NCBI GenBank assembly: GCA_016630905.1
Contig: WBMQ01000010.1
Location: 1,178,001 to 1,242,000, forward strand
Source of the DNA: Capillidium heterosporum
Taxonomy: Eukaryota > Entomophthoromycota > Entomophthoromycetes > Entomophthorales > Capillidiaceae
Direction: 5' to 3'
DNA: 64,000 bases
The position numbers and the translations under genes are program-made. Shown piece after piece: positions 6,166-35,942 of this stretch. The notes under the pieces are model-generated. The model worked only from the letters and a program-made list of their open reading frames with translations. It ran no database searches and was not told the origin of the DNA. Position 1 is the first letter of the stretch, and every line of letters begins with the position of its first letter.

Positions 6166-6669
6166 CTACTCCTTGGCAATCTGCTGTAGTACACCGGAGA
6201 AAGCACCTACCTCGATGGCTTCCAACACACCGTTAGCCACCCCATACCTGAACTTGTTCTTGACTTGACCCTCCTGCTCATAGTCATCCGATCTTCGCTC
6301 CAAACCTTCGTTCTCGACTTGCATTGGTTGGGTAGATGCAATCGATTCCATTGGGGCGTCATCATTCATAGGTTTTGGAAGCTGGGCCATAGAACCCATA
6401 GGGTTCATAGATTCGAGGGCCATGCCTTCGTTTTCAGAAGCTTCAACCTTGGGCTGAGTAGGCTCGTTAGGTTGCGAAGGTTCCATCGGGTTTTCGGGTG
6501 CTTTAGGGCCGGCTGGCAGTGAAGATGGTAATGGAGCATTGTTTTCACTGTTCATCATCGATTCCATCTGCTCAATGGGATTCCCTTTGTTGTTGATGTT
6601 CTGAGGGATCATGGCCCCGCTGACTAAGGCTAGGAATGGCAGAGTTAGGGTGATGGTGTTGAACTTCAT
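6166..6669 (-). CDS. Small secreted Pro/Met-rich precursor protein
   Basis: A single-exon protein of 167 residues with a clear signal peptide (MKFNTITLTLPFLALVSGA, residues 1-19). A long Pro-, Met-, Asn- and Glu-rich spacer follows, then a dibasic site LERR at about 123-126 of the Kex2 type, then an acidic stretch. The C-terminal block GVANGVLEAIEVGAF resembles the ends of the precursors at 25629 (GVANEVLQDVNVSAF) and 32973 (GLVNGVFNDVEVEAL). No cysteine is present in the mature part and I recognise no known domain. It lies about 12 kb from the main cluster of similar genes. The function is unknown; a secreted peptide precursor, wall-associated protein or effector are all possible. Confidence 0.72.
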   Translation of the reverse strand: MKFNTITLTLPFLALVSGAMIPQNINNKGNPIEQMESMMNSENNAPLPSSLPAGPKAPENPMEPSQPNEPTQPKVEASENEGMALESMNPMGSMAQLPKPMNDDAPMESIASTQPMQVENEGLERRSDDYEQEGQVKNKFRYGVANGVLEAIEVGAFSGVLQQIAKE

Positions 6670-18724: not shown

Positions 18725-18967
18725 CTAGACCAACTGAGTATCGGTCTGCTCAGCATTACCAAGTACCGATATGACAAAGTTTTGCAAGAGGTCTTTCAAC
18801 AGTACATGATGGACTTCTACGTTATCAAAACTACCGTCATCCATAGCCTCCCCACCCCTACGCTCTAGGTTTTGGGCTTCGGTGTTGAAGGGCAAGGCTG
18901 CACTTTGGACTTGGAAGATGAGGATTAAAGTGCTAGTTGCAAAAAGTAAGGCGGTACTGAACTTCAT
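18725..18967 (-). CDS. Small secreted precursor (tandem pair, member A)
   Basis: 80 residues, one exon. A signal peptide (about residues 1-22, ending VQSA) is followed by a short pro-segment to the dibasic site LERR, an acidic linker, and the C-terminal block LLQNFVISVLGN. It is a clear paralogue of the gene at 19662-19898: both have IFQVQSA at the signal cleavage site, AQNL/TQNL before RR, and VLLKDLL/VLLQDLL then V-[IV]-S-[VL]-L-G-N near the end. The two genes lie in the same orientation about 930 bp apart and their upstream regions are also similar. No cysteine in the mature part. Function unknown; the C-terminal segment fits the family motif seen through 35.1 kb. Confidence 0.75.
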   Translation of the reverse strand: MKFSTALLFATSTLILIFQVQSAALPFNTEAQNLERRGGEAMDDGSFDNVEVHHVLLKDLLQNFVISVLGNAEQTDTQLV

Positions 18968-19661
18968 GGCAAAGTTTACGTGATAAGAATGCTAGTAAAT
19001 TGGGATGCTATTAGTAAGTTTACCGATTTTATGGTTGAGTACGATTTTTATATAAGCTGGCTCTGGTAGTATCCGTTTGAAAATCTTCAAATAGGTGAAA
19101 TCTAAAACTTCGATTTGTTGATGTCGGTAAGTTTAAAGTATGTTGAAGTGAAGTTTCAATATAGATAGCTATTTAGCGAATACATTTGTTGTCATTTTGA
19201 ATTTATGAAATGTAACTTTTACGTTGAAATATATTTCTTAACTCACTAAACCGTTTATTATACCAGTAGGTACAGTAAACTATCAAGTATTTGCACTGTT
19301 TTTCAATAGTATTTGATATTAAGTTATAATCAATTGTAGGTGATTTCAATTGATTTAGGTCCAACTTACTAGTTATATCTCTAATTAGTCTTGAAGAAAT
19401 GAAGATGGATTCATTACTTTTGTTTAAAATTCCATATTCAACAAGTATCTATAGGATATATTGACTATAAAAATATAGTAGATGAAAAGTGAATATTATT
19501 TCTTATGTGATTTTAGAATATGTATATAAACCATCGATTATTGAAACACCTATAGTTCTAACATACTATATATTTCATAAATCGAACAAACTATAGAAAA
19601 CAATTAAAATTCAAACTATAAGCTAAATATATAAATATAAATGCAATTTATTAATATATGG
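18968..19661. other. Spacer of the tandem precursor pair, includes promoter A
   Basis: The first about 270 bases are the promoter of member A, with a TATA candidate TTTTTATATAAG at 19045-19056. The remainder is AT-rich with no gene seen. Confidence 0.45.
19074..19095 (-). promoter_or_regulatory. Conserved upstream element, member A
   Basis: The 22-bp block beginning CGTTTGAAAATCTTCAAATA (plus-strand sense) lies 107 bases upstream of the ATG. A copy with one mismatch lies 104 bases upstream of the paralogue at 19662-19898 (20002-20023). Both sit just beyond a TATA candidate. It may be a shared activator site or simply young duplicated promoter DNA. Confidence 0.4.
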
Positions 19662-19898
19662 TTATGAGGTTTTTTCGTCAATTTGTACGGTGTTGCCAAG
19701 TAATGAAACAACGACGTTTTTCAACAGATCTTGTAACAAAACAAAGTTCTCTTCATGGTTTTCGTACTGGCTGGAATAATTTTCTCCTCTACGCATCAGG
19801 TTCTGGGTTTCAGCATCGACAGGCAAAGTAGCGCTTTGGACTTGGAATATCAAGGCTATTGTGGTGGTTGCACTTAGTAAAAGGGCACGGAACTTCAT
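19662..19898 (-). CDS. Small secreted precursor (tandem pair, member B)
   Basis: 78 residues, one exon, paralogue of the gene at 18725-18967. Signal peptide to about residue 23 (IFQVQSA), pro-segment TLPVDAETQNL, dibasic MRR, a Glu/Asn-rich linker, then LLQDLLKNVVVSLLGN and a short acidic tail. The signal peptide and C-terminal block are conserved with its sister while the linker is freely replaced, a pattern expected of precursors in which only the ends are constrained. A TATA candidate TTTATATATAC lies at about 19971-19981, some 75 bases before the ATG. Function unknown. Confidence 0.75.
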   Translation of the reverse strand: MKFRALLLSATTTIALIFQVQSATLPVDAETQNLMRRGENYSSQYENHEENFVLLQDLLKNVVVSLLGNTVQIDEKTS

Positions 19899-20540
19899 CT
19901 TATGGTTTTAAAAAGTGATGGGGATGTAAGATGCTAGTATTAAAATTGGTAAAGCTGAATGGAAGTTGGATTTATATATACTATTATATTTTGATACTGG
20001 ACGTTTGAAAATCTTTAAATAGGGATATAGTTTGTAGCTGTTGCTACCAAGTTTTTAAATATACAGAATCCTTTGGTTATCGAATTGTTGTTTTGAAATT
20101 AGAATTGCCAGCTTTACGTTGAAGGTATATTTTCCTATTTGCAAAAGTCGTTTCATTTATCTGGAGACAAGGTATCTAAGGTACAATAATTTCGGTAAAA
20201 TTGCACAGTACCTTGGTTTAATATTCTATCTCATTGCAACCAATAGTAATATATTAGGTATAAAATATCCATTAACTACTGGATACCAAACTGTAAAAAT
20301 ATCGTTGCAAGCAAAAATGCACAAATGTCGATAAATTTGCTGCACCAGTTTACAATGCCCAATATCAAAAATATTTGAACGGACAAACTTTATCAAAGGT
20401 GATCTGTTGACTTTTACCACTACAGAAATTTCAACTATGTATACAAAATAAATATCCGTACTATAATAAAAAATATACTACCTATCCTATAAATACACCT
20501 AATCCACATAAACTACCCTAACAATTGAAAAGGAATTCCA
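19899..20540. other. Divergent promoter region between two secreted genes
   Basis: It serves member B (minus) and the precursor at 20541 (plus). Besides the TATA candidate and the element at 20002-20023 nothing is recognised; short frames here are not gene-like. Confidence 0.4.
20002..20023 (-). promoter_or_regulatory. Conserved upstream element, member B
   Basis: The block beginning CGTTTGAAAATCTTTAAATA (plus-strand sense) matches 19074-19095 with one mismatch and has nearly the same distance to its ATG. See the entry for member A. Confidence 0.4.
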
Positions 20541-20768
20541 ATGAAGCTATCTAACTTGAGCCTACTTATGATCTTAGGACCAGCCATAGTCGTAGGTTTA
20601 GCTATACCCAAACATCTATCCCGTAGGGCCGGAACTGAAAACGACGATGAACCTATTGACCATAGGTACGACACTTTGAACCAGTATGACATCGCCGCCA
20701 TAAACCGAACTGCTAACAACATAAGTGTCGGTGTAGGTGGTATCCCGGTTTTGTCCAACGGAGATTAG
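20541..20768 (+). CDS. Small secreted precursor
   Basis: 75 residues, one exon. Signal peptide MKLSNLSLLMILGPAIVVG followed by LAIPKHLSRR, a dibasic site at about residues 28-29, an acidic linker with DHRYDTLNQYD, and the C-terminal block AAINRTANNISVGVGGIPVL. The NN-x-S-V-G-V-G-G string aligns with N-x-Q-V-G-L-I-G of the precursor at 30034, and the GIPVL end recalls LLGIPIL in the one at 32024. NRT and NIS are possible N-glycosylation sites. Function unknown. Confidence 0.68.
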   Translation: MKLSNLSLLMILGPAIVVGLAIPKHLSRRAGTENDDEPIDHRYDTLNQYDIAAINRTANNISVGVGGIPVLSNGD

Positions 20769-22155
20769 TTGGCTTGGAGGTTTGGTAGGATGCATTAAAA
20801 CTTTAATTAGCTATTTTTGTGTATTGTGGTGGTATTGCTTATTAAATAAATACATGGCATTATAACTACTGTAACTTTATTTCTATTTTATAGCCTATAT
20901 GTATTTATGCTTTTCGATGAAGTTTTTGAGTAGTAGTATTTTTAATACTGCCATATCCAAGTCCTTTTACATTCTACTCTATCCCTTGTCGCATTCCTAT
21001 CGAACTGATAGGCTAAAGCATATGAAGTTGACTCACTTTGGTAAAAACTTACAAATACAACCAGTTCTCGAGCCCTATGAAGCCTTTCATCCCAGTTTAC
21101 TACATTATATATAGAATGGGCAGACTTCTTAGTCTGTAAGGCAATCTACATAGCTTCATATCTATCAATATTGAAGATAAAAGAGCTAAACCAATAAATG
21201 TATATTTTCTCAAAAGCCATATTAATAAGCTTTGTCCCACTGTATCATAATAAATCTTACAAGAATCGGTATAAATCTAATCAAAAAACCTCCTTCTTTA
21301 TCAGATCCATATCCTAACTAATGTGATAACCAAATCAATCGTTATAAAAGCAGCTTAGGTCTTAAACTATCAGAATAACCAACTACATTTTGATCAGTGG
21401 ATCGGGAAAATATGCTAAATAGCCGGATTTTGTCTTGAGCTTCATCTCTAACCTTTGAGGTACCAGTAGGTGACGTAAAGTGATTAGTTTCTAAGCCATA
21501 TTAGTAGAAAAGATCTCAAGTTATTATTAAAGGGGATGGCTAGTGGAAATGTGACCTTCCTTATATTAACAGTAAAACACACCTAACAGTTGTCAGATAG
21601 CTTTTATGAGCTTAAAGTTTATCGAAATTAAACCAAGAACCTAGGGCTAGTCTAGAAGTGAATACATGGCACAACTCCAAGTATTGTTGAAGCATGTCTA
21701 AGCATACAAAGACTATACGCTGGCATTGAGTATGCAATTGACTTCCCTTATCATACCACTTCACAACAATAATATTTTGTAAAGAATTTCGAAAATCACC
21801 TGATCTCTTTCGAAAAAGTTCTTGGGACAATCACTCGTCAAAGCAGAAATAAGCTATACTCCGAAACCAATGACACTACGGTCATGAACTCATATTAAAA
21901 TGGCTAAATACCCATTACCAGAAACCGGAGATTGTAGGATTGAGAGTGGTAATTGGCGTCAAGTGTCTTCCCGCTGATGCTTCTACATATTATGACGAGC
22001 TATATTTGGATATAGGCGTCGAATTTATATATCTCTAAATCAGGTGACGAAACTCAGTCTGCAGCTACCTCTATGAAATCAAAGCCTCAAGCTTTACTAT
22101 AAATACATCTCAATCCCTACTTTTTCAACTTAACAGAAACCAGTTACGCAAGAAT
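20769..22155. other. 1.4-kb intergenic before GH31 copy 3
   Basis: No gene recognised. Short frames at 20899-21114 and 21612-21830 (minus) lack protein character. The promoter of GH31 copy 3 is at the right end, with CTATAAATAC near 22097-22106. Confidence 0.45.
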
Positions 22156-24325
22156 ATGTTCCCCAAATTCGTCTTATCGTACCTAGCACTCGCTTTAGTC
22201 AGTGGTGCCCAGTTAGGTAATCTGGATAGCTTCGCCGAAGTCAACTCCAATACCTTCGCCATCAAGTCCGGTTCAGCCTCGGTCCAAGTAAGTTTCCTAG
22301 ACGACAAGGTCATCCGAATCCAAGCCGTACCCTCAGGCGAGTTCAGTGAACCTTCGATCCCGATCGTCGTCCCAGCTACTGGATTCAACAAGCCTTCGAT
22401 CAAGGCTCGCGATACCAGTGATACCTACGAGATTACTAACAAGAACTACCGTCTTAAGGTCCACAAGAAACCCTTACGTTTCTCTTTATTCAACGAGCAC
22501 AAACAGGTCTTCGAGGAGGCCCAACCCATCCAATTCGACGACAACCAAACTACTCAGACCTTTGTCCCAGCTGCTGACGAGTATTTCTTCGGTGGTGGTA
22601 TGCAAAACGGTAGGTTCCAGCACAAGAACACCAATATCAACATTACTGTGGACTATAACTGGAATGATGGAGGTAATCCTAACCCTTCTCCTTTCTATTT
22701 CTCGAGTAAAGGATATGGTGTCTTCCGTAACACCTTCGCTGGTGGTAACTACAACTTCACTGCCCCTACCAGCTTGGTGCACCAGGAGAATCGATTCGAT
22801 GCCTACTACTTCCTAGGTGATGCTAAGACTATCCTCAACAAATTTACTGCTTTAACCGGTAGACCTTTCATGCCTCCAATCTATGGTTTAGAACTTGGTG
22901 ATTCGGATTGTTATTTGAAAACTGCCAACGGACGTCCCCCCAAGGATACTTTAATCGATTCTACCAAAGTAGCTCAGGGCTACGTCGACAACGACATCCC
23001 AGTCGGTTGGCTACTAGTCAATGATGGCTATGGTTGTGGGTACAAACAACTTGGTGAGACTAACGAAGCTTTAGCTCAACGTAACGTCACTTTAGGTTTA
23101 TGGACCGAATCCAACCTTATCAACCAACCTACCGAAGTAGGCAAGTGGGGTGTACGTGTTCGTAAGTTAGATGTCGCTTGGGTTGGAGACGGTTATGAGT
23201 TCGGTTTCAAAGCCTGCAACGAAGCTTATAACGGTATCCAAGATAACTCTGACGCCAGAGGTTTTGTCTGGTTAGTTGAAGGTTGGGCTGGTTCTCAGAA
23301 ATGTGCCGTTCAGTGGACTGGCGATCAGACCGGTACCTGGGAGAACATTAGATTCCATATTCCTACCTTACATGGGTCCGGTAATTCGGCTCAAGTTTAC
23401 GTAGCTGGTGATATCGACGGTATTTTCTGGGGTTCACCCAAGACTTACATTAGAGATCTACAGTACAAGGTGTTTACCCCAGTTCTTATGACCATGTCAG
23501 GATGGGCTACCTACGACAAGCAACCCTGGCGCTATGGAGAACCAGGTACCTCCATCAACCGCAAGTACTTGAAGTTGCGTGAACGCCTCCTGCCTTATAT
23601 CTACACCTTGTCTCACGAAGCTCATAAGACTGGTGTCCCCATTGTGCGTTCCCACGTTTTAGAATACCCCGAAGATCCTAAATCTTACGACAAGGAGACT
23701 ACCAAGTACCAGTACTTCTTTGGCCCATCCTTCCTCGTCGCCCCCGTCTACAAGGATGAACTTAAGAGAGACGGTATCTATATCCCCCAAGGCTCCTTCG
23801 TCGACTACTGGAATGGCAAAGTTTACCAAGGCCAGCAAACCTTGAACAACTATCCAGCACCTCTTGACACCTTACCTCTCTTTGTTAAGGCTAATTCGAT
23901 CATACCTATGTGGGGTAACATCAACTCCTACAAAAATCGTAAACCTAGTGATCGCTTGTACTTGGATGTCTTCACCACTTCCAATGCCAATGGTAATAAC
24001 AGCTTCAATTTGTATGAAGATGACTTGGTTACTCGCAACTTTGTCGACAACCAATCTTCCATTCAGACTTTTAGTGTTGATGTTAAGGTTGATTCCATCA
24101 AGTTCAAAAGTCGGTAAGGTACTTGGTCAGTACAAAGGTAAATCCCAAGCTAGACCTTACACCATCAACTTCACTGCCAAGAAACCTAAGGACGTTAAGG
24201 TAAAGGGCTTGGATAAGAGTGCTTGGACTTGGAAGTTCGATGACAAGGTTCGAGCTGGCACCGTTATCGTCGAAGTTAACAGTTTGGAGGTGGATCGTGA
24301 GTTGGAAGTTGAAGTTCAACTTTAA
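22156..24325 (+). pseudogene. GH31 glycoside hydrolase copy 3 (inverted), one-base frameshift near the end
   Basis: Third GH31 paralogue, on the plus strand. The frame from 22156 encodes 653 residues: signal peptide MFPKFVLSYLALALVSGAQ, N-terminal sandwich and the entire catalytic barrel with RKLDVAWVG (nucleophile Asp) and QWTGDQ (acid/base Asp). At 24105-24108 the run AAAA is one A longer than needed. The frame stops at TAA (24117), whereas skipping one A joins smoothly to GKVLGQYKGKSQARPYTINF and on to a natural stop at 24325 (722 residues in total), matching the ends of copies 1 and 2. Because the lesion falls in the C-terminal sandwich, the truncated enzyme keeps its active site and this copy is the most likely to be functional. 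Codons are more often C-ending than in copies 1 and 2, as in highly expressed genes. Confidence 0.88.
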
Positions 24326-24725
24326 AGTATTATTGCTTTATAATTAAATAATTTTTTACCAAATGGATTGGGAAATTTAAATATTTTTTGTTAGGTATAT
24401 GTAAGCTTTCATTTAAATTTTGTAACTAGTTGAATCAACATCACTACTTATTTCTTTTGAATTTATAAATATTTATATTCACCTAATATTTCTATAGAAA
24501 TAAAAATACATCATCAGGTCTTAATAAAAGTATAATCCATCACTTTAGTATATGAAGTTTCGATCAACTTTCAAGTTGGGGTGCCATCGAAACCTGCTAG
24601 AAATAACCCATCCCATAATATTATCCTACCTTACATTATATAACTGATATCAATAGTAGAGCTTAATTCAATTTATAAAAGTTATAAATTTGCAAGTAAA
24701 AATGCCAAAGTATTTATTTCCATCT
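24326..24725. other. Intergenic between convergent GH31 copy 3 and a secreted gene
   Basis: AT-rich 3' flanks of two convergent genes; no gene or repeat recognised. Confidence 0.45.
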
Positions 24726-25046
24726 TTAAGACTTGATGATCTCCTGCTTAGATTCACCGATGGCGTTGACCACAAAGTTGTTGGCCAAGCTGTTAACGAC
24801 GGCAGCATTGTAGGAGAACCTACGCTTGTACCCGTTGTTGGGGTCACTGTCATTTGGGTTATCACCACCACTTACTCCCCTACGGTTCAACGGCATTGGT
24901 GGCTTGGTCTCCTTACCCTGAGCCTGCAGAAGTTTGTTCTTCACTAGGTTGGGTAAGCTACGCTTCTCGAACTGTTCCGATTGGGAGGGTAAGCTCAAAG
25001 CTTGAAGGATGATGGTGGAGATTAAAGTTAGGTATGTAAATTTCAT
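24726..25046 (-). CDS. Small secreted precursor
   Basis: 106 residues, one exon. Signal peptide to about residue 18 (MKFTYLTLISTIILQALS), then dibasic sites FEKR at about residue 28, LNRR at about 56 and YKRR at about 75. The pieces they release are a Lys/Gln/Pro-rich segment, an Asp/Asn/Gly segment and the C-terminal block FSYNAAVVNSLANNFVVNAI followed by GES. The last block fits the family motif (N-x-L-A-N-N-x-V-V-N-A-I-G). A TATA candidate, CATATATAAG on the minus strand, lies near 25122-25131. Three dibasic sites make a processed multi-peptide precursor plausible. No known domain. Confidence 0.72.
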   Translation of the reverse strand: MKFTYLTLISTIILQALSLPSQSEQFEKRSLPNLVKNKLLQAQGKETKPPMPLNRRGVSGGDNPNDSDPNNGYKRRFSYNAAVVNSLANNFVVNAIGESKQEIIKS

Positions 25047-25628
25047 TTTGCTTTTATTAGTATAAAAGGATTAGATGCTAGAGAGGATTCTGTATAATTT
25101 TTAAGGAGGGTTTTAACTTTGACTACTTATATATGAGTTGATTGGAAGTGTAAATTTCCTTCGTTAAAGGATATTTTGTACTACTATAATAGATCTTCAC
25201 ACTTTAATTATAGGTGCTATTAGCAATTTTCTACTTCTAAAATGTTTACCAACGTATGTACTCTACTTTTCTATCAAAACTTTAAACTGAATTTTCAACA
25301 AGTTATTGATGATGTTGGGTAAGTTTTATAAAATAAGAGTTTAAACAGCAAGCTATTAAATTCTCCTATAGCATAGCTTTTAGGACTTTTTTTAATTATT
25401 TAATTCAACAGTAGTAATTCTATGAAATACTAAGTAGGGTTATATTTGATGGATTTTACTTTTGAGCTAATACATCGAAAAATATCTGCGATGTTTGGGG
25501 CTACAACTGAACATAGGCAGATCATAAACTAAGTTGGAAAGGACATTTAATCGATAATCTAATATATATACGTCGAAGCTGTATCAAGTACAGCGAATAT
25601 CAAAACAAAACTAGCTAATAGTACAAAA
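25047..25628. other. Divergent promoter region of two secreted genes
   Basis: Shared upstream region for the minus gene ending at 24726 and the plus gene starting at 25629. TATA-like runs occur at both ends (about 25125, and TAATATATATACG at 25560-25572). No gene seen. Confidence 0.45.
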
Positions 25629-26162
25629 ATGCATTTCTCCAACCTAATCGTCTCATCTATTCTCCTCATGCTCCAAGTTAACAGCATGGCCGTCAGGACT
25701 GACCACCATCATGCTTTGACTCGAAGAACCCAACCCGACATCGAAATTTTGCAGGGCAAGCGCAAGATTATGCGTAGACAGAACGCCCCGGCTACCCCAC
25801 CAAAAGTTGAAACTAGCACTACCAAGGAGATCAAGAGTAAAGGTGGTGAAGTCATCGAACGTGAGATCAAGACCACCACTATCGAGGAGACGGAAGGTGA
25901 AGATGAATCTAGAGCCAAGGACAAGAAGAATGGAAACGGTGGTAAAGGTAATAATGGTGGACCTAATGGTAATAAGGAGAGTGTAGCTGATGCCAACCGA
26001 CGTAAGCGTAAGAATTTAAGTTCGGCCGCCGATGCCAACCCCAACAAGAACCCTGAATATGATACCATCAACGAGACTCAATTTGGAGTCGCTAACGAGG
26101 TACTGCAGGATGTGAATGTTTCTGCCTTTGCCGCTGTCAACGAGTTGGCTTCTAGAGAGTAA
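25629..26162 (+). CDS. Secreted charged, Thr-rich precursor (linker subfamily)
   Basis: 177 residues, one exon. A signal peptide of about 20 residues is followed by a His-containing pro-segment with dibasic sites LTRR (about 33) and IMRR (about 50), then QNAPATPPKVETST. A Thr/Glu/Lys block includes IEREIKTTTIEETE, then comes a Gly/Asn/Lys-rich low-complexity stretch, then RRKRK, and finally the C-terminal block FGVANEVLQDVNVSAF. The order RRQ-N-x-A-P, Thr-rich charged block, Lys/Gly/Asn linker and C-terminal motif is shared with 34642-35133 and partly with 28890-29408, so these three form a subfamily. The end also matches the ends of 6166 and 32973. Low complexity in the middle suggests a disordered spacer. 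Function unknown. Confidence 0.73.
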   Translation: MHFSNLIVSSILLMLQVNSMAVRTDHHHALTRRTQPDIEILQGKRKIMRRQNAPATPPKVETSTTKEIKSKGGEVIEREIKTTTIEETEGEDESRAKDKKNGNGGKGNNGGPNGNKESVADANRRKRKNLSSAADANPNKNPEYDTINETQFGVANEVLQDVNVSAFAAVNELASRE

Positions 26163-26351
26163 GATTCAAGATTTAAACTTCAAAAGGATGATTATTTCAT
26201 AGTAAAGGCATAAATTTTGGGGATGTAGATACCTACTTTTGTAGAAAATAAACATACAAACTCTTATAATATGTTTTTTGTAAAGTACTGATATATATGC
26301 ATGAAATAGACAAGATGTATAACTTGATTTTATTAGAAGGGATAAATTAAA

Positions 26352-26528
26352 TTAGCAGTCGGTCTCCAAAGTATCTACGTTGTCGTTAGCTACTACCACC
26401 TGCTCACTACGTCTACCTAAGTTGCGGAAGCTCCTACCACCGGGGATGTTGCTTCGTCGATTGGGTACCATGAATCCTTGGTACAGCGTAATCAAACTTA
26501 ACATCGATACCAGCGTAATTAATTTCAT
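26352..26528 (-). CDS. Very small secreted protein (58 residues)
   Basis: Minus-strand frame from ATG at 26528 to TAA at 26352. The N-terminus MKLITLVSMLSLITLYQG is a good signal peptide, followed by FMVPNRR (first dibasic site), a Gly/Ser/Arg segment, LGRR (second dibasic site) and a short acidic tail SEQVVVANDNVDTLETDC. The placement among similar genes, the TATA-like TATATACG on the minus strand near 26567-26574, and the strict signal-plus-dibasic architecture support a real gene despite its size. The usual C-terminal LLG-type motif is not obvious; instead there is a single terminal Cys. Function unknown. Confidence 0.55.
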   Translation of the reverse strand: MKLITLVSMLSLITLYQGFMVPNRRSNIPGGRSFRNLGRRSEQVVVANDNVDTLETDC

Positions 26529-27796
26529 TTTTCTTTTACTATCAATAGTTCAAATAGTTGGTAGTTCGTATATATAAAAATGGAATGAAATGTATTTGGA
26601 TTGATGAATTTTTTTGAAAAGTTGTGCCTTTTATATGGCTTAGTTTTTGCAAAAGCGTGGGGAAGTAGGTTCAGTAGTTTGGGTAGAAAATTAAAAAGTT
26701 GGAAATTGTGGGGTAAGAACGTTATATGTAAGCCAAAATAATTTGATAAGCTTCAGTTGATATATCCTTCTATTTTTGATAAAGTAGTTCCCCATGCTAT
26801 CATTTCCAATAAGACAGGCTTTTTTACATCTTCATGGGTGTCAAGTCCTGATGTTTTAATTGGAAGGTAGAGATGTGCGACCATGTAGTTTTTTGTTTAG
26901 AGAAGGTAGTTTATAAATGAGTACGTATTATGCTGGTTATAAATTGAGTTTCCTAGGTTGGATAGCAGATGTGTTACCTGTAGAAGGTTTGGGTAATTTG
27001 TATCAATTTAGGTTTTGGAGTTGATGTAGTGGAAATTGCTGATTTTAATAGGTTACTAGCTTTGATATTTTGACATGAGATAATACTAAGATGCTACGTA
27101 TATTTGATGGGCTGGAAGGGAGTATTTTAGGTGATTATGTATGATAAAAGTATTGATTGTATAGTGGAGTTTGCAGTCGAACAATTCTAAATGTCATTCG
27201 TACAAATTTTAAATTTATATTAGCACTATCGCTTAATATACTTTGATATATTTGGCTATATATACTAATATGAATATGATTTTTAGATTCATTTTTGTAT
27301 AGTTCAAACATATTTGTAAATTTAAAACTATACGTCTGCCCTTAGGTATTAAATCATTTTTATAACTGATGATGGCTCTTTAAATAGATAGCAACCATCA
27401 AAGTATTTAGTAGTGTAAGGAAATATGAGTATGAGTATAAGTACAATCAACTCTAAAAGGCTGTATCAAGTTAGTTTTGATAACTGGGCTGATTGAAGAT
27501 ATATTTCAGTGCTGAAGCTCGAAATGTTTAAAGTATGGCTATAAAAATATATAATTTAATTTAAACTGTCTATTTCTGGAAGGAAACCTTAAAGTTCATT
27601 GGTAAATATCCTACATGACGATACCAAGTGAAATATAAATCCAATAAAGTAAGAGTATTTGCTAGGCCTCTTATAATCCATTGGATAGCTTCATGTTTCT
27701 AAACTATAATGAATCGTAAAGCAAAGGCTTATGCAAAGCAACCGATTCTTTCCATCTAGCAAAGGAACCAACAACTCCAATTAGAAGAGGCAGATA
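26529..27796. other. 1.3-kb intergenic region
   Basis: AT-rich, no gene or repeat recognised. It separates the first part of the secreted cluster from the zinc-finger orphan gene and must carry both promoters. Confidence 0.45.
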
Positions 27797-28603
27797 ATGG
27801 AAGAAAGCGATACCAAAGGGACTTACGAAGTAGTAGTCGAAGGTGAAGCGCTGAAATGTTGTCCACTCTGTCAACTCCAAATCGACGACTTAATGCAGTT
27901 GGAAATCCATGCCAGTAGTTGTGATGGAACTTTACCTCAAAAACCTGTCAAGCGACCTAGGAAGCTAGCCTCTATATTCAGCAGTAGTAGACGTAAAGAA
28001 CTAAGTTTACCAGACTTTAGGGACAAAGTCAATTATGAAATTGACACATTATCCGACGAAGACTTTAAACCCAAATCGGAGCAACTCAAGGTACTTTTAA
28101 ATAACAAGGAGTATTTTGATGCCAAGGAATTTGATAGACATGTCAACCAGAAGATTAGTGAAGATAGATATTTAAAGAAATTGGAAAGAAAGCTAGTCAA
28201 CCAAAGTAAAGTTTTGTCAAAGGTTGAATTCAATATCCATCAGAAGGAACTGACCTTCAACTTCAATTTTTCATCCAATTTGGTGGCACCCAATTTGTTT
28301 CTTAGCTCTGATGTGTACCGTAAGCTAACCTTAAAGTTTACCAATTCGATTTCTACTGCTATATTTAATGAAAAATTCTATGAGGAAAGGGTCAGTTGTT
28401 GGGACGTACTTGAGGTGGGCAGAATACTAAAGCAAAATAAGGACTCTAACAATTGGGCTGAATATGAAGATAGCAAAGGTATGAACTTGGATTTGAATAT
28501 AGAGCCTAGGGCAGGTAAATCTATCTGGCAAATTTCCAATTTGGATTGGCATGATAATAAGGACTGTTACTCGGGTTTCGTTGTAAAGTTTAGGAAGTCT
28601 TGA
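27797..28603 (+). CDS. Orphan protein with N-terminal UBZ-like zinc finger
   Basis: 268 residues, one exon, apparently cytoplasmic or nuclear (no signal peptide or membrane segment). Near the N-terminus CPLCQLQIDDLMQLEIHASSC (roughly residues 22-42) has the C-x2-C-x12-H-x3-C arrangement of UBZ/Rad18-type ubiquitin-binding zinc fingers. A basic patch follows (KPVKRPRKLASIF and SSRRKE), which could be a nuclear localisation signal. The rest is a Lys/Asn/Phe-rich domain of mixed helix and strand that I do not recognise, ending in SGFVVKFRKS. By analogy UBZ proteins act in DNA repair or ubiquitin signalling, but no enzymatic domain is visible. It sits within the secreted cluster yet is unlike its neighbours. 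Confidence 0.75.
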   Translation: MEESDTKGTYEVVVEGEALKCCPLCQLQIDDLMQLEIHASSCDGTLPQKPVKRPRKLASIFSSSRRKELSLPDFRDKVNYEIDTLSDEDFKPKSEQLKVLLNNKEYFDAKEFDRHVNQKISEDRYLKKLERKLVNQSKVLSKVEFNIHQKELTFNFNFSSNLVAPNLFLSSDVYRKLTLKFTNSISTAIFNEKFYEERVSCWDVLEVGRILKQNKDSNNWAEYEDSKGMNLDLNIEPRAGKSIWQISNLDWHDNKDCYSGFVVKFRKS

Positions 28604-28889
28604 CATTTCCGATTTGTCCTGATTTAATTGTGTTTTGTATAATTTATTTTTGTTGGAGTGTTGAGCAGATTGGGCACCTTTGAGCTATCTTCATTGATCG
28701 ATTGGTGATTTCAAGCTTTTGGGATAATAAAGTTTTGATTCGTTTTTTGTTAGCGTAATATCTACCGTAAGTTTAATTCTGGTTAATTGGTTTTCAAGTA
28801 TATTAAATAAAGGGTATAGATACAGTTTATTTGTAAGTAGACCAATAAAGTAGAAGGTAGAAGAAATTAAGTTTAATAAGCCATTCCAG

Positions 28890-29408
28890 CTAATTCGCCC
28901 CATCGACATCGTCGTTGACTGAAGTGCCCAATAAATTGAACTGATTCGTCCGAACCGAGTGGTTAACTAAGGCATATCGGTATCTGTTGTAGATGTGACC
29001 GTAGTAAGGACCATCGCCATCACCATCTCCTCCCTTATCTCCCTTCTTTTTGTTCTTTTTGGAATTGGCATTACCTACATCTTCATTATCCTCTGAGCTC
29101 TTTTTTTTAGATTTTTTGTCATTGTCGTCGTCCTCTTCTGTTACGGTAGTGGTGGTAGTTCGTGTTATCTCTTCAGTTCCCCGCTGCCCAGAAAGTCTAC
29201 GTTTAGTGACAGTGACCTCTTCGTTCTCGGGCCTACTGGATCGTGACGTTGAGGTAGTGGTAGTGGATTCTGATTTTGACTCATTGGGAGTCAAGTTGGG
29301 TAAGTTATCTACAACATCTATACCTAACTGACGTCGCTTTAACGGTGAGGAGTAGACGGTTAAGTGCAGTAGAAGCACAGTTAACAGCTGAGTAGTAAAT
29401 AATCTCAT
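28890..29408 (-). CDS. Secreted charged, Thr-rich precursor (linker subfamily)
   Basis: 172 residues, one exon. Signal peptide to about residue 20, then LKRRQLGIDVV (dibasic followed by Q, as in the other two subfamily members). A Ser/Thr/Arg stretch with VTVTKRRLSG follows, then TRTTTTTVTEEDDDND, a Lys/Asn/Gly-rich spacer (KKNKKKGDKGGDGDGDG), and the C-terminal region YRYALVNHSVRTNQFNLLGT. The last part matches the family pattern S-V-x-x-x-Q-[FV]-N-L-L-G seen also in 33751-33990. The antisense frame at 29050-29331 is a shadow of the low-complexity linker. Function unknown; the disordered acidic/basic spacer and processed C-terminal peptide are the visible features. Confidence 0.73.
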   Translation of the reverse strand: MRLFTTQLLTVLLLHLTVYSSPLKRRQLGIDVVDNLPNLTPNESKSESTTTTSTSRSSRPENEEVTVTKRRLSGQRGTEEITRTTTTTVTEEDDDNDKKSKKKSSEDNEDVGNANSKKNKKKGDKGGDGDGDGPYYGHIYNRYRYALVNHSVRTNQFNLLGTSVNDDVDGAN

Positions 29409-30033
29409 TTTTATGTGTATGTAGGTGTAATGTGGCCTTCCCTCGAATGTTGCTTAAGCTTCATATATATTGATGTCAAGTTTGCTCTTTATATATAGTT
29501 GGTATTTTTTACATAATATACCCTGCTCGTTAAGTTAGCCGGCTTATTTATTTATTTATTAGATAGTCATCGAGTTATTAAAGCTTTGTCAATATCCTCC
29601 TACCTATTGTTAGTTTTCAACTGAATCTACTATAATTTCCGTACAACCCGAAAATACTATGGTAAATCTACAAAAGATTGTCAACTTTCAACGAGTACAG
29701 TTAAATCATCTAATAATATGGATTGAATTGAATTCTCATCACTATTGGGTAGAACTTTAAAATAACTACAACCTTTAAGAATTTTCTGTGTAATTTTTTT
29801 TAATTCCAGTTCGCAAATTTTTATAGGATCTACCAAAATCTATCAACAAACCAAAACACACTATCGTCAGAGTACATAGAACTCTGTAAGATACTAATAG
29901 TAAATTTATCATTGACAAACAAAGTATAAACTGAAAATTCTACTATAGTATAAATTATATTCGATTCTACTTTTCACTAAAATAACTATCCACCTCTACA
30001 TCCACCTGCATATATCTTACCCTCCGCTACACC
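29409..30033. other. Divergent promoter region
   Basis: Between the minus gene at 28890 and the plus gene at 30034. A TATA candidate CATATATATTG lies at 29462-29472 for the minus gene; no gene seen. Confidence 0.4.
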
Positions 30034-30234
30034 ATGAAATTCAACCTAATTGCCGTATCTACGTTACTAGGTTTTGTACTGAGTGCAACCGTACCCAACT
30101 TAAAGACTCAGAGTAGAGATCTGCTGGAGCGTAGGGCTTACTACAATGTCCAGAAGGGTAAATTGTTCCAGGATTCGGTCCAAAACTTACAGGTCGGTCT
30201 CATTGGGTTTGGTACCTTCAACGCTGCCAACTAA
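30034..30234 (+). CDS. Minimal secreted precursor carrying the C-terminal motif
   Basis: 66 residues, one exon; the simplest member of the family. Signal peptide MKFNLIAVSTLLGFVLSA, a short pro-segment ending LLERR (about residues 30-34), and then only the putative mature peptide of about 32 residues: AYYNVQKGKLFQDSVQNLQV followed by GLIGFGTFNAAN. Its F-Q-D-S-V-Q-N-L-Q-V-G-L-I-G string lines up almost position by position with F-E-D-S-V-S-N-A-Q-I-G-F-L-N at the end of 34642-35133, although the two proteins differ greatly in length and linker. This is the best evidence that the C-terminus is the functional part. The leader is pyrimidine-rich just before ATG. Confidence 0.74.
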   Translation: MKFNLIAVSTLLGFVLSATVPNLKTQSRDLLERRAYYNVQKGKLFQDSVQNLQVGLIGFGTFNAAN

Positions 30235-30975
30235 TAAATCGATACATATATTTACACTACATTTTAATAAACACTATAGTATTTAATACATATACAACTT
30301 CAAAAATGTTGATTAAATTGTTATCAGCTTAGCTACAGTATCGTTTTATATTATGTATTAGCAATTTTCATTTACAATACATTTAAAGCAAAAAGTTAAA
30401 TATAAAGCATGTCGATTTCAATGAGTAGTGGGAAATTTGTAATCTGCTCGAGACATGCTCTAATAACAGAAGCAACTCTTGTTGGATAAAAGCTAAATAG
30501 GTGGAATTTGAACTTGGAAAAATACTCTTATCCTAACAATTTTCTAGAATGGGTATAAACTAGATCACTCATCATCATTTATATACTGCCTTTAAGAAGT
30601 ATCTCTAAAGTCAACTCATACATATATACCCTTTCCTACTTTAGCAGAAGCAATATACAACTTTGCCTGTCCCTTTTGGAAAGTCCCAAATATCAAATGA
30701 AGGCACAGCTCATGGCAATATCAACTTGTCATACTAAGTGATGCAGCCCAGTTCTACCGGTTAGGTATGTAGCCACAATCATTGACAAAAATTTCAAACT
30801 GGCCATTACTTTTATGCATTTTTAATATATATAAATCACCTTTTGAACTTTGAATGTGTGTACTAAGTAGAAAATATTCAGTATTTTCCTTTATAAACCA
30901 AATAGAAAATGGAATACAGTAGCACATTTATTTAGTTAACAATAGATGGCACAAGTTTAGACCTATTTCTAAGCC
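30235..30975. other. Intergenic between convergent secreted genes
   Basis: AT-rich with no recognised gene or repeat. Confidence 0.4.
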
Positions 30976-31404
30976 TTAAAATTTTCTGAAGCGGCACTCA
31001 CGCTCAAAACGGCAGAAAGGGAAGCGACAGCATTCACGTGAAAATACACAACCACGACGACGACACATCTTCTGCATACTACCACTGAACTTGCAGCTAC
31101 GAGAGAAGCGGCAGAAATCGAAGCGACAGCATTCGCGAGAGAAAAGGCAATTATTGCGACGGCAGCGTTCACGCAAGTTGAAGGACTCCTGAGGCTGGCT
31201 ACCCGTCATCTTGTACATGATAGTAGCTTCCTCAGAGTTCAACATGGGTTCTCCTAAAGATTGCATAGCAAGGTTCTCCATAGTTGGGGTAGGACTGACG
31301 CTCTGAGTCAATTGGACATTATCGTGAGTAGCCTGAGGGTCCATAAAGACTAATTTCGATGCTACTAAGGCAGAAAAGATTGATAATACAGATAAGAGTT
31401 TCAT
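30976..31404 (-). CDS. Secreted protein with two tandem six-cysteine (CC) domains
   Basis: 142 residues, one exon. Signal peptide about residues 1-16 (MKLLSVLSIFSALVAS), a Cys-free pro-region of about 65 residues, then two tandem repeats of about 26 residues near the C-terminus. Each repeat has six cysteines in the order C-x4-C-x5-CC-x4-C-x5-C; the sequences are CRRNNCLFSRECCRFDFC and CRRRGCVFSRECCRFPFC, each followed by RF and a final Cys. The six-Cys order with a central CC pair is that of knottin/inhibitor-cystine-knot peptides, although the even spacing is unusual, so the fold is an inference. Both repeats are rich in Arg and Phe, giving a cationic, amphipathic surface. Possible roles are antimicrobial, inhibitor or host-directed peptide; none is shown. 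The repeat is also obvious in the DNA, so it arose by internal duplication. Confidence 0.78.
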   Translation of the reverse strand: MKLLSVLSIFSALVASKLVFMDPQATHDNVQLTQSVSPTPTMENLAMQSLGEPMLNSEEATIMYKMTGSQPQESFNLRERCRRNNCLFSRECCRFDFCRFSRSCKFSGSMQKMCRRRGCVFSRECCRFPFCRFERECRFRKF

Positions 31405-32023
31405 TTTAATTTTTTTGTTGAGCCTGGAAGTTACATGCTATTTATATCTTCGTCTCTGCCAAAAAGACTTTTGCTGGAGTGATAAGCATTGAGCCAAAAG
31501 TATGCTTTAAAGTATAGTTTACGTATGTACAGTTAATTTTATTAAAAAAATGATATATATCGATGGAAAGCTATATAGTTACTTATTGATTTAGCTTTCC
31601 TTTATGGGATTTATCGATATTTTATAAGGTAGGCTTGGAATTCAGGTCTAATTTACTTATTTTTCATGGGTGAATGTATTTAAAAGTTTAATTAGCGAAG
31701 TGAATTATACAGTTAATTTATTAATTATTAATTAGTTCTATATCTACTAAAGAGATATACTTTAGCTCTATAAATATTTAATTTTATGTCGCTACAGATC
31801 CTAATGCAAACAATAATGTCTATCTCAAAATAAACTCAAAGCTCCAAATTAACTATATCATAAAATAGTTATAATTATTAGGTATGGTACAGTTTATTCA
31901 AGACTTAATGAATACACCTTTTGAGATATGTTATGTTGTAAAATCTTTGGTCATCAATACTAGCAAGTTTAATATACCCACATCAAAAATTAAATATGCT
32001 GATTTATTATTTAAAATGAAATT
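31405..32023. other. Intergenic, upstream of the Cys-rich gene
   Basis: Promoter of the cysteine-rich gene at the left end (TATTTATATC near 31439-31448). The remainder is very AT-rich and without a recognised feature. Confidence 0.4.
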
Positions 32024-32410
32024 TTAAGCTTCCAGTTTTTCCAACTCCTGGTCATCAAGCTTAGCATCTTCGAAATCAGGTGATGGAGCACTAGGTTGGG
32101 AAGCTTTATTTCCTGGTTCTCCAAACTTGATGTTGCCCGGTAAGATAGGTATACCGAGCAAATCAATCTGGATGTTGGTGAAGCTACCACCTATCAAGTC
32201 GACATTCTGCTCCAAAGCTTCCCGCTTCTTGCGATCTAACTCAGCTTCGTCCTGCTTACGCTTCTCTCTTTCCAATTTCTTACCGACCTTGGCTTCAGAG
32301 TCGGCTGGTACACTTCTACGGCCGAGTTGGTTTGGGGTATTTGGCACCGTCAGAGATATGGTTGTGCTGATTGTACCTAATATTATATATAGGGTTGGGT
32401 TCATCTTCAT
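32024..32410 (-). CDS. Secreted charged precursor with internal motif
   Basis: 128 residues, one exon. Signal peptide to about residue 21, then LGRR (dibasic), a strongly charged helical segment (KKLEREKRKQDEAELDRKKR, possible coiled coil), then the hydrophobic block FTNIQIDLLGIPILPGN. An additional Pro/Asp/Glu-rich tail of about 35 residues follows. The block fits the family motif (F-x-N-x-Q-I-D-L-L-G) but is internal here rather than C-terminal, which could mean that the tail is removed or that this member has been extended. The minus-strand ATG at 32410 is followed by a second Met at codon 3. Function unknown. Confidence 0.68.
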   Translation of the reverse strand: MKMNPTLYIILGTISTTISLTVPNTPNQLGRRSVPADSEAKVGKKLEREKRKQDEAELDRKKREALEQNVDLIGGSFTNIQIDLLGIPILPGNIKFGEPGNKASQPSAPSPDFEDAKLDDQELEKLEA

Positions 32411-32972
32411 CTTTATTTTTTGTTATTGGAGCTATTAGCTGGTGAAATTTATTTGGGACTATGTTATATAGTTTGAAGTTTTTGGCTTTTGTAAGTTGTT
32501 AGATCTTCGTAACTTGGGCTCCGTTATTTTTGTCAAAGGAGTACAATTATTTATCTCCGGGGTTTCTAGGGTGTAACAAATGGATGTCACTGCTACTTGA
32601 ATCATAGTACCCATTTACAGCTTTTTGTTTTTAATCATTTGTATTGACAGATAGGCAAACTGGAACATAGCTCATCTAAATATTTGATTATTTTAAATAT
32701 TACTACTTTGTTTATTAAAACAAGCAACCTACTTAACGAAAACTCTATCAAGGAAGAGTTCAAATTATGTATCAGTTAAATGTGAAAATTTCAAGTGTAT
32801 ACAAACTCAGCAATACAATCACAAATACGAACTACCGTTAATGTTCTAGGAACATAATTCAGCCCTACAACAAACTGTAGATCAAACTTGAAAAGGAACT
32901 ATACAACAAAGATACTAGTTAAATAAAAGGATACAGGCAGCAAAGCATTGTTTACTCTTAAACTTCAAGCCG
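32411..32972. other. Divergent promoter region
   Basis: Between the minus gene at 32024 and the plus gene at 32973; TATATAG near 32465-32471. No gene seen. Confidence 0.4.
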
Positions 32973-33281
32973 ATGTATCGCCTAATAATTTCAAGTCTCT
33001 ACTTAATCACTTTGGTTGTTACCCTTCCAACGGATCCTTCGGCGTCTACTTCTATCAAATTTGAACGGAGGATGGAAATGGCCAAGGAAGGTGGTACTAA
33101 CAGCCTATTGAGACGCTCTGATAACCGTGGATCTAGCCCCAATTCGGAGGATGACCAGCTCTACGACGGATGGACCGGAAGTAAACAGAAGCATGAGGTT
33201 GGTTTGGTCAATGGGGTGTTCAACGATGTCGAAGTTGAGGCCTTGTCTGATGCTGACCTCTACTCAGTTATCAATGGATAA
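32973..33281 (+). CDS. Small secreted precursor
   Basis: 102 residues, one exon. Signal peptide MYRLIISSLYLITLVVT, then FERR at about residues 30-33 and LLRR at about 47-50 as dibasic sites. An acidic Ser/Asn/Asp linker leads to the C-terminal block HEVGLVNGVFNDVEVEALSD. The G-V-F-N-D-V-E-V-E-A-L string belongs with GVLEAIEVGAF (6166 gene) and EVLQDVNVSAF (25629 gene), a second flavour of the family's C-terminus. No cysteine; no known domain. Confidence 0.72.
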   Translation: MYRLIISSLYLITLVVTLPTDPSASTSIKFERRMEMAKEGGTNSLLRRSDNRGSSPNSEDDQLYDGWTGSKQKHEVGLVNGVFNDVEVEALSDADLYSVING

Positions 33282-33750
33282 CTTAGCATATATATTTTAA
33301 TTAAAACTTGCATTATTTTTATATCTCCAACTACATCTTTGTTTAGTTTCTCGATCCAATACCTACCTTTATTTTGGTACTTCCTTTAAATGAAATAAAA
33401 ACTTTTACTACATCGTGCATATATTAAATATAAAATTCGTATATATCCAAGAAATACTTTTTATAAAATACATTTAGAATTTTATTTTGACTCTTGTATA
33501 GGATTTTCAATACTTTTGCTACAATGTAAGGATCGATTTCTGTGCCAATCCGAGGGTAAAAATAATGTCTTATTCTACTCTAACCAATGCTAATTCGCCT
33601 TAATGGCTTATACCGTTTAATCATATGGTTCTTGTTAATATGTATAAAATGATAGTATAACAATAGCTGCATGAATTTTTTATATATAAAAGTAGCATTG
33701 TGCGCTAGATATGGATATAATAATGCAATGAGAATTTATTAATAAGAAAG
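33282..33750. other. Intergenic between convergent secreted genes
   Basis: AT-rich 3' flanks; nothing recognised. Confidence 0.4.
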
Positions 33751-33990
33751 TTAAACGGTATCACCGGGCATGAGTACACCGATGGATTCATCAGCACCAC
33801 CTAGGAGATTGACCTGAGTATCACCGACCGAATCGTGCATTATAGCAGCTTGGTGCGAAGTCTTTGGGATATCTCGAGCCCTACGCTTTAATTTGTGATT
33901 CTGCTGGGCTATTTCCAACGGGTTATAAATAGCTATACCGATTACACTCACTATTAAGTTTGCCAGCACCAGTATAGTTTGAGATTTCAT
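33751..33990 (-). CDS. Small secreted precursor
   Basis: 79 residues, one exon. Signal peptide about residues 1-19 (MKSQTILVLANLIVSVIGI), pro-segment with NHKLKRRAR (dibasic), then a putative mature peptide containing AAIMHDSVGDTQVNLLGG and a short acidic end. H-D-S-V-G-D-T-Q-V-N-L-L-G matches F-Q-D-S-V-Q-N-L-Q-V-G-L-I-G (30034) and N-H-S-V-R-T-N-Q-F-N-L-L-G (28890). The short length and position of the motif right after the dibasic site are typical for the family. Function unknown. Confidence 0.72.
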   Translation of the reverse strand: MKSQTILVLANLIVSVIGIAIYNPLEIAQQNHKLKRRARDIPKTSHQAAIMHDSVGDTQVNLLGGADESIGVLMPGDTV

Positions 33991-34641
33991 GCTTCTGGAT
34001 GATATTGAAAAATTAGGGACTTCTTTTGGAGGGTATAACCATATTCAATACTTTTTATATTGCTCTGGTGGTTAAGGAAATTAAATGGATTACCATTTAA
34101 AACTTGAATATTGTTTTGATGCTCGGCTGTTGAAGCGGTACTTTTTGAATTTTCATAGTATATTTGTTACGGTCTTGCAACAGCTATAGGTATACTTTAT
34201 AGAGTATTTTCATTAGATACTTAGGCCATCGCCAATTTCAATCCAATCGCTTTCAATGATATCTTAAATAGAGGTAAATGCTTGGATACATTAAAAGTGC
34301 TATTTCGATAAATCACAATATTTGGCGATTTACATTTTTCCGTTATAATCTAAAGAATTATAGTTGAAATTTGCTTATCAAACTTTACCATCAAAACCTT
34401 ATACTTAATGTAGAAGCGTTGGTTTACTACTTAACTATTGAAAAGCAGTTGTATTTTTTAAATATATGAAACTTTTGTAACAAAGGATATTATACTTTAC
34501 ATTCAACAGTAACAAAAGAGTAAACTATCGATTCTAAAACTCAAATTGTTTGGTCGCTCAATAGCACTGATTATATCAAGTATATATATACGTACATTGA
34601 CCTACAACACTAAAAGATATCCAACCTAGAGCCAAACTAAA
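33991..34641. other. Divergent promoter region
   Basis: Shared upstream region of the minus gene at 33751 and the plus gene at 34642. A TATA candidate AGTATATATATACG at 34579-34592 is about 55 bases before the plus ATG. No gene seen. Confidence 0.42.
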
Positions 34642-35133
34642 ATGAAGTTTTTACTACCTACATTAATTAGCATCCTAACCGTCAGCGCCCTAAGTGGTAC
34701 AACCCCCAAATTGATGCGACGTCAGAACCAAGCTCCGACAGCACCATCAGCAGCCCCAACCGTAATTCCAAACGCAGCTCCTGATACCTCCACCACTCAA
34801 GTGGTAACCAATGCCAAAGGGCAGAAGGAGGTCATAACGCGATCCTCTAAAAATACTGTTACTATCGATGACGAGATTGAAAAGCTGGAGGCCGAAGAGC
34901 AGGCTAGAAAACGTAAGCTACAAGAAGGCGGAAGTGGCAACGGTGGGGATGAAAATTCCAGATCCAAGAAGAATGGTAAGAAGAGTAGCTCCCGCAGTGA
35001 CGAAGACGTCACAAAGGGTAGTAAACCCAACGCCGGGTTTGAAAACCAGATCCAAGGAGGTCTATTTGAGGATTCAGTTTCCAACGCTCAAATCGGTTTC
35101 CTCAACTTGGGTGCTGTCAATGCATTCAACTAA
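34642..35133 (+). CDS. Secreted charged, Ala/Pro/Thr-rich precursor (linker subfamily)
   Basis: 163 residues, one exon. Signal peptide MKFLLPTLISILTVSALSG, then LMRRQNQAPTAPSAAPTV, a dibasic site followed by a Pro/Ala-rich start as in the 25629 gene (MRRQNAPATPPK). A Thr/Lys/Glu block (TTQVVTNAKGQKEVITRSS) is followed by an acidic helix IEKLEAEEQARKRK, a Gly/Ser/Lys-rich spacer, and the C-terminal block GGLFEDSVSNAQIGFLNLG. The last block is nearly the same as in the 66-residue precursor at 30034. Antisense and frame-shifted frames at 34797-35155 are shadows. Function unknown. Confidence 0.74.
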   Translation: MKFLLPTLISILTVSALSGTTPKLMRRQNQAPTAPSAAPTVIPNAAPDTSTTQVVTNAKGQKEVITRSSKNTVTIDDEIEKLEAEEQARKRKLQEGGSGNGGDENSRSKKNGKKSSSRSDEDVTKGSKPNAGFENQIQGGLFEDSVSNAQIGFLNLGAVNAFN

Positions 35134-35465
35134 CTATATGTATTTAATAAACTAGAGCATTACATATATACTATAAACTTTTTAACTTTACAATGCAGTT
35201 TCTAGATATCAAATAGCTTTATAATTTAAAAAAGCACTATAGCCTATATATCAACTGCCTTACATAAAGTAATAAACTTTTATCTAGAAATATATTCTTA
35301 TATATGAAAGATATTAGCTAAATATTGAATCTATTACGATAGTTAGTATAGGAATATTGTAAAAATTGGCGTCAAAAGGCCTTTGAAATGACTCCATTTG
35401 AAATCTAGACTTTTACAAGCTTCTTTAGATGATGTCAGTAAAGAAGTTTACAACCCATCTCAAGA
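35134..35465. other. Intergenic, end of the secreted cluster
   Basis: 3' flank of the last precursor and promoter of the rhodanese gene; no feature recognised. Confidence 0.4.
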
Positions 35466-35942
35466 ATGTCCGAAACACTTATCCCACTCAAAGAAGTCGT
35501 ACCCCAAGAGCTCGTCGAACTGTTACACACAGAAGGCTCCAAGTAACTCTATTTTTTCGACATATTTTAACACAATTAGAGTTAAAGTTATCGATGTCCG
35601 CGATGCCGACTTTATTGTAAATTTATAAATTTCGTTTTATACTAACATTTGTAGGGAGGGAACATAAAAGGCTGTATAAATTTCCCATCTAAAAAGTTTG
35701 ATACTGCTAGTTATAAGGAGTTGATAGGAAAGTTGGAACCTAATACAAAACTGGTATTTCATTGCGTATCGAGTGGCGGTAGAGGTCCACGTTGCGCTCG
35801 AAAATTTATCGAACTGGATGCTGAGAATGAAGAACAGGGTTTGGATGTTTATTTGTTGAAAGGTGGGTTTAAAGCGTTCCAGAAAGAGTACAAGTCGGAC
35901 CCTAACCTTGTTGAAAATTTTGATCAAGAAAAGTATGAATAA
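35466..35942 (+). CDS. CDC25-like rhodanese phosphatase (Ibp1/Ych1 type), 3 exons
   Basis: A small single-domain rhodanese-fold phosphatase of 133 residues. Exons are 35466-35542, 35580-35616 and 35655-35942; both introns begin GTAA and end TAG and keep the frame. The domain starts with VKVIDVRDADF, as in CDC25/rhodanese proteins, continues with GGNIKGCINFPS, and has the active-site loop HCVSSGGRGPRCA, in which Cys-x5-Arg (C-VSSGG-R) is the phosphatase/arsenate-reductase signature. A C-terminal segment VYLLKGGFKAFQKEY closes the fold. Close relatives are fungal Ych1/Ibp1 and plant Cdc25/Acr2-like proteins, which dephosphorylate small or protein substrates or reduce arsenate. The exact substrate is not inferable. 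The start Met was chosen because upstream codons in frame are AT-rich and not protein-like. Confidence 0.88.

Follow-up and report, generated by a model that had tools for sequence, protein, structure and literature searches.

A clustered family of predicted Kex2-processed secreted precursors with a shared C-terminal module in Capillidium heterosporum

Several groups of secreted fungal precursors carry sites for the protease Kex2, which cleaves after KR or RR and favours Leu at P4 (PMC8528282). The KEP proteins (Kex2-processed repeat proteins), including alpha-pheromone precursors and Rep1 of Ustilago maydis, have a signal peptide and Kex2-type sites, are expected to yield a small extracellular product and are often genus-specific (PMC6339444, PMC7329392). 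One survey asks for three or more copies of the core, with Kex2 sites between them (PMC6339444). K2PP (Kex2-processed pro-domain) effectors, for instance SnTox3, have a signal peptide, a short N-terminal pro-region and a Kex2 site with P4 Leu (PMC8528282). The Candidalysin precursor Ece1 is named in PMC7329392. From this secreted precursor, Kex2 frees an amphipathic peptide. In this study, we analyzed a stretch of 64,000 nt from the fungus Capillidium heterosporum, hereafter called the window (positions 1178001–1242000 of the 1.62-Mb contig C2; genome 29.5 Mb, 44 contigs), in which an initial annotation had described a cluster of small secreted precursors with a common C-terminal motif. Twelve genes of this cluster form a real family, which is undescribed as far as Pfam, PDB, protein-database and literature searches reach. 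Judged from its sequences, it probably consists of secreted precursors processed by Kex2, has expanded locally and is apparently lineage-specific; a C-terminal module would be the functional part.

Compared with the described systems, the family shares with KEP proteins the signal-like start, the Kex2-type sites and the expected small extracellular product, and it is apparently as restricted in its distribution. However, KEP proteins repeat their cores within one precursor, whereas here each precursor has a single core, which recurs from gene to gene, and the family therefore fails the KEP definition. A six-frame scan listed one module place per gene at a score of at least 13, and this check concerned repeats of the module, not other repeat types. 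With K2PP effectors the family has in common the signal-like start, a predicted pro-region and the site with P4 Leu; it differs in being cysteine-free, in having a short C-terminal module as its most conserved part and in the late site of one member, 6166. From Ece1, to which the family is likened by description only, it differs by mostly acidic products with one core each. The Ece1 precursor contains several peptides.

The twelve members are single-exon open reading frames (ORFs) of 66–177 amino acids (aa) located at 6166–35133 of the window. All were present and intact where the initial annotation had placed them, each running open from an ATG to a single stop codon. Every member has a signal-like hydrophobic start (12/12 by a crude hydrophobicity rule, not SignalP), an L-x-R-R site, a linker, the module and a tail, as listed here by window position, the first coordinate serving as name.

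6166..6669, minus strand: 167 aa; LERR at 6292-6303; module VANGVLEAIEVGAFS at 6196-6240; tail of 9 residues
18725..18967, minus strand: 80 aa; LERR at 18857-18868; module LLKDLLQNFVISVLG at 18758-18802; tail of 10; paralogue of 19662
19662..19898, minus strand: 78 aa; LMRR at 19788-19799; module LLQDLLKNVVVSLLG at 19695-19739; tail of 10
20541..20768, plus strand: 75 aa; LSRR at 20616-20627; module AINRTANNISVGVGG at 20697-20741, the weakest; tail of 8
24726..25046, minus strand: 106 aa; LNRR at 24879-24890; module VVNSLANNFVVNAIG at 24756-24800; tail of 9
25629..26162, plus strand: 177 aa with long linker; LTRR at 25716-25727; module VANEVLQDVNVSAFA at 26088-26132; tail of 9
28890..29408, minus strand: 172 aa with long linker; LKRR at 29331-29342; module LVNHSVRTNQFNLLG at 28926-28970; tail of 11
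30034..30234, plus strand: 66 aa, the shortest; LERR at 30124-30135; module LFQDSVQNLQVGLIG at 30163-30207; tail of 8
32024..32410, minus strand: 128 aa; LGRR at 32315-32326; module LIGGSFTNIQIDLLG at 32153-32197; tail of 42, an outlier
32973..33281, plus strand: 102 aa; LLRR at 33105-33116; module LVNGVFNDVEVEALS at 33204-33248; tail of 10; neither TATA nor AATAAA
33751..33990, minus strand: 79 aa; LKRR at 33880-33891; module IMHDSVGDTQVNLLG at 33799-33843; tail of 15
34642..35133, plus strand: 163 aa with long linker; LMRR at 34711-34722; module LFEDSVSNAQIGFLN at 35062-35106; tail of 8

The C-terminal motif, which had been aligned by eye in the initial annotation, was recovered de novo. A Gibbs sampler applied to the last 60 residues, with the register not given, found the module in all twelve members with a score of 317.0. 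This exceeded all 40 shuffles (264.3 ± 3.9, maximum 273.0), as well as all 40 draws of 12 sequences from 42 other secreted-like ORFs (275.9 ± 7.2, maximum 290.5). When the last 45 residues were used, 11 of the 12 were in register (score 326.1; 40 shuffles 278.6 ± 5.5, maximum 291.6), and in 32024 a different segment was chosen, since its motif extends past that stretch. A full-length MAFFT alignment gave the identical register in 12/12. The initial annotation had set apart a second flavour of the motif (6166, 25629, 32973); because this aligns in the same register, both flavours are a single ungapped module of 15 residues. As proposed, the module lies near the C-terminus, with a tail of 8–11 residues in ten members; 32024, where 42 residues follow the motif, departs from this.

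The module was then sought in all six frames of 264 kb around the window. Using a profile trained on the members, these scored 23.0–33.1 and the next place 14.4; the latter was the single non-member place at 13 or above and is regarded as chance, 20 position-permuted profiles averaging 1.55 such places. Apart from it, the module was confined to 6166–35133. Leave-one-out profile scores ranged from 7.8 to 26.7 and reached at least 13 in nine members, the lowest being those of 34642 (12.4), 28890 (11.3) and 20541 (7.8). Because its score compares with 14.4 for a non-member and with the places of the permuted profiles, 20541 is not assignable by the module alone; its membership is supported by the L-x-R-R site, the position in the cluster and the tail length.

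The dibasic sites, one or more of which had been noted per gene, are present and could be sharpened to an L-x-R-R site in 12/12 members (500 shuffles: mean 0.22, maximum 3). Among 52 other secreted-like ORFs of at most 250 aa in the 264 kb, a single one, 26352 inside the cluster, carries L-x-R-R, and three match the looser pattern [LMIVF]-x-[KR]-R. The site starts in the first half of ten members; in 24726 it is at the midpoint (residue 53 of 106), and in 6166 it comes late (residue 123 of 167). Two proprotein-convertase P-domains above the Pfam cut-off were found in the genome, with 1 of 14 control genomes matching too, and judging from these matches a convertase is likely to be present. The additional cluster gene, with a module score of −1.3, is as follows.

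26352..26528, minus strand: 58 aa; signal-like start; LGRR; without module; family relation uncertain

Further support came from the flanking regions. The element TATA[T/A]A occurs 36–120 nt upstream of 11/12 members (25.4% of random non-coding places) and AATAAA at most 90 nt downstream of 11/12 (12.7%), 32973 being the sole member with neither in the tested ranges. Since these signals flank 11 members, the sequence supports most members as real single-exon transcription units.

A search beyond the cluster for hits above chance, as proposed with the initial annotation, led to one locus on contig C23 of this genome and to none in other species.

C23:3031256-3031468: 71 aa; LERR; module LFNGFGENLVVDLLG; tail of 9 residues; downstream of a secreted subtilase with I9 pro-domain

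With a profile not trained on it, the module of this C23 gene scored 20.2, and it appears to be a further family gene, a case carried by its layout. A copy with the same parts in two frames lies at one end of contig C22 (38 kb), and the stretch compared there (33001-38492) repeats part of C23 (within 3024001-3034000). Because a neighbouring 35-aa ORF is also shared in identical form, a redundant or allelic nature of C22 is probable.

Residue tallies over 13 genes, i.e. the twelve members and the C23 gene, outline the module in greater detail. It is amphipathic, being hydrophobic at positions 1, 2, 5, 6, 9, 11, 13 and 14 and polar at 3, 4, 7, 8 and 12, with N at position 3 in 7/13, N at position 8 in 8/13, V at position 11 in 9/13 and G at position 15 in 9/13. 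By periodicity, which describes a pattern and not a structure, the first half is helix-like and the second strand-like (V-x-V-x-L-L-G). The linker between L-x-R-R and module spans 9–120 residues, with 9 in 30034 and 12 in 33751. The whole segment after L-x-R-R measures 32–54 residues in eight members and 96–146 in 25629, 28890, 32024 and 34642, and these four carry additional dibasic sites ahead of the module. Cysteine is absent from 12/12 members, and the net charge after L-x-R-R ranges from −8 to +1, being negative in 9/12.

The linkers diverge, as stated in the initial annotation, but not wholly freely, for the neighbours 18725 and 19662 are clear paralogues with 53–55% identity. For this pair, dN (NG86) reached 0.86 (linker) and 0.74 (tail) compared with 0.26 (signal), 0.23 (pro-region with L-x-R-R) and 0.26 (module region); because the segments comprise only 10–24 codons and dS is saturated or nearly so in most, these values are taken as uneven constraint, not positive selection. 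In most other members, little beyond the layout is conserved, and BLASTP comparisons of 25629, 28890 and 34642 (E 0.056, 1.1, none) did not establish that they are related over their full length. In protein searches of the own genome, which are based on shared words, 24726, 32973, 33751, 20541, 28890 and 6166 each matched themselves only, 19662 matched itself and 18725, and 34642 itself and a weak place with E 2.2. Besides itself, the C23 gene retrieved 30034 and two pieces making up the C22 copy, and 30034 retrieved itself, 34642, the C23 gene and three places later rejected. Two of the latter, on contigs C3 and C32 (L025 and L026; E 5e-4 and 0.003), have frames broken by stops, and the third (L029 at C23:2092230; E 0.049) falls in a secreted-like ORF with a different layout. 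Since single-protein searches miss diverged members and three of the twelve (18725, 25629, 32024) were not among the queries, the family size is a lower bound. The ORF of L029 itself (positions 1495-1956 of that locus; C23, about 2092230) encodes 153 aa with an internal NVKITVLG and loosely repeated segments, and possibly represents another secreted family.

The initial annotation knew of no named family with this layout, and the Pfam, PDB and protein-database searches, which returned no relative, agree. Pfam-A gave no match above the cut-off for the 12 members, 26352 and the C23 gene, and a PDB profile search gave no relative, five matches with E 1–4.8 being taken as chance. Profile searches of about 5.8 billion proteins, among them proteins of Entomophthora, Massospora, Neoconidiobolus and Conidiobolus, produced 2386 and 920 word-sharing candidates, none with E ≤ 10. 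Distant relatives would escape such a search because a short module needs a high score at that database size. Also, gene models often omit very small genes. In the available parts of PMC6339444, PMC7329392, PMC8528282, PMC9026835 and PMC11105155, no description of the family was found.

The processed-precursor layout with a shared C-terminal module is thus well supported by Gibbs sampling, the leave-one-out profiles, the L-x-R-R and flanking-signal controls and the 264-kb scan. That short hydrophobic stretches of unrelated or non-coding ORFs were aligned by chance is hardly credible: random sets of secreted-like ORFs align too, and 20541 is weak when left out, but the family score lies above the best of these sets, and the site in all members, the flanking signals and the C23 gene point the same way. 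For the family as a whole, chance alignment is contradicted by the Gibbs and L-x-R-R controls. It is possible, though rather unlikely, that the members are secreted effectors against a host or competitor, a fast-changing released polypeptide acting on the neighbour and the module serving as active or targeting element. Clustered, fast-diverging small secreted proteins with a Kex2-type pro-domain fit the K2PP layout (PMC8528282), and most members have K2PP sequence features, an effector role being putative. Moreover, the nearest relatives by the copper-ATPase of the window (48836–52477) are insect pathogens; over the compared part, its identity falls from 67% (Entomophthora muscae) and 66% (Massospora cicadina) to 63% (Neoconidiobolus thromboides) and 53% (Conidiobolus coronatus), which most likely places the fungus in the Entomophthorales. 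However, conservation is strongest in the C-terminal module and not in the variable body, and the products are cysteine-free and mostly net negative. Cysteine-rich effectors and cationic lytic peptides differ from such products.

Alternatively, the module could be an address tag by which linker cargos, as the working parts, are anchored or sorted to one place. The uniform tail length in ten members next to linkers of such different length fits this idea, which is nevertheless improbable, as several members such as 30034 and 33751 have little cargo left between L-x-R-R and module, and no larger module-bearing protein was found in the 264 kb. Equally doubtful are cell-cell peptide signals, i.e. 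pheromone-like or quorum ligands whose module is read by a receptor: fungal alpha-pheromones share the Kex2-type precursor layout (PMC6339444), but here each precursor has one core without repeats, and at least 12 different products are many for one receptor system. We also give little weight to a multigene ligand family in an early-diverging fungus. Its paralogous peptides, each with one core, free of cysteine and released by Kex2, would present the module to a single receptor or self-recognition surface and vary in their flanks, in a logic comparable to that of expanded plant peptide-hormone families.

For the preferred reading, i.e. Kex2-processed secreted precursors with a functional module, the following course is proposed. 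The precursors would enter the secretory pathway via the signal-like start, a Kex2-type Golgi protease would cut after L-x-R-R, and the module-bearing C-terminal part would be released outside the cell. There, the module may self-assemble or dock on a common surface, e.g. the wall of hyphae or the coat of conidia, with the linkers as the diversifying part. Surface assembly or docking is a tentative proposal, which we favour over an effector or pheromone role because the module is kept across linkers of 9–120 residues in cysteine-free, mostly negative products. A described analogue is Rep1, whose peptides cover the hyphae of Ustilago with amyloid-like fibrils (PMC8528282).

A number of observations speak against this interpretation. 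For secretion, cleavage and expression it draws on sequence, and for surface assembly on residue pattern and analogy. The signal-like starts come from a crude rule, the site of 6166 lies late, and without a second cut the four long-linker members would retain their long linkers. AlphaFold2 applied to 30034 with a 12-row alignment was uninformative (mean pLDDT 56, all helix), leaving the strand-like reading unsupported. The leave-one-out score of 20541 is within reach of chance, and the dN comparison has to cope with short segments and saturation. Finally, the whole-sequence link between the C23 gene and 30034 is weak (E 0.04 and 0.06), and the database searches gave no homologues in other species.

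Other features of the window, whose GC content is 31–50% per 2 kb, were also recorded. Among the cluster genes lie three GH31-like glycosidase copies with signal-like starts, the Pfam check for GH31 having been made for the third.

9073-11244, minus strand: GH31-like glycosidase copy
14179-16351, minus strand: GH31-like glycosidase copy
22156-24325, plus strand: GH31-like glycosidase copy
17103-17165, plus strand: match to the C/D-box snoRNA snoR38 (45.1 bits; gathering score 45)
30976-31404, minus strand, inside the cluster: 142-aa cysteine-rich secreted-like protein with two near-repeats of C-x-F-S-R-x-C-C-R-F-x-F-C-R-F

The coding sequence of each GH31-like copy is broken by a stop or frame change, and the copies may be pseudogenes or reflect assembly errors. 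For the 142-aa protein, no Pfam match above the cut-off was found.

Little seems to have been written on processed secreted peptides in Entomophthorales, and in the literature searched no paper named both 'Conidiobolus' and 'Kex2'. Because KEP surveys require internal repeats (PMC6339444, PMC7329392), single-core families would escape them. The combination of L-x-R-R and a C-terminal module provides a simple rule for finding such single-core precursor families. As 12 adjacent paralogues keep the module while their linkers vary, the role of the module is directly testable.

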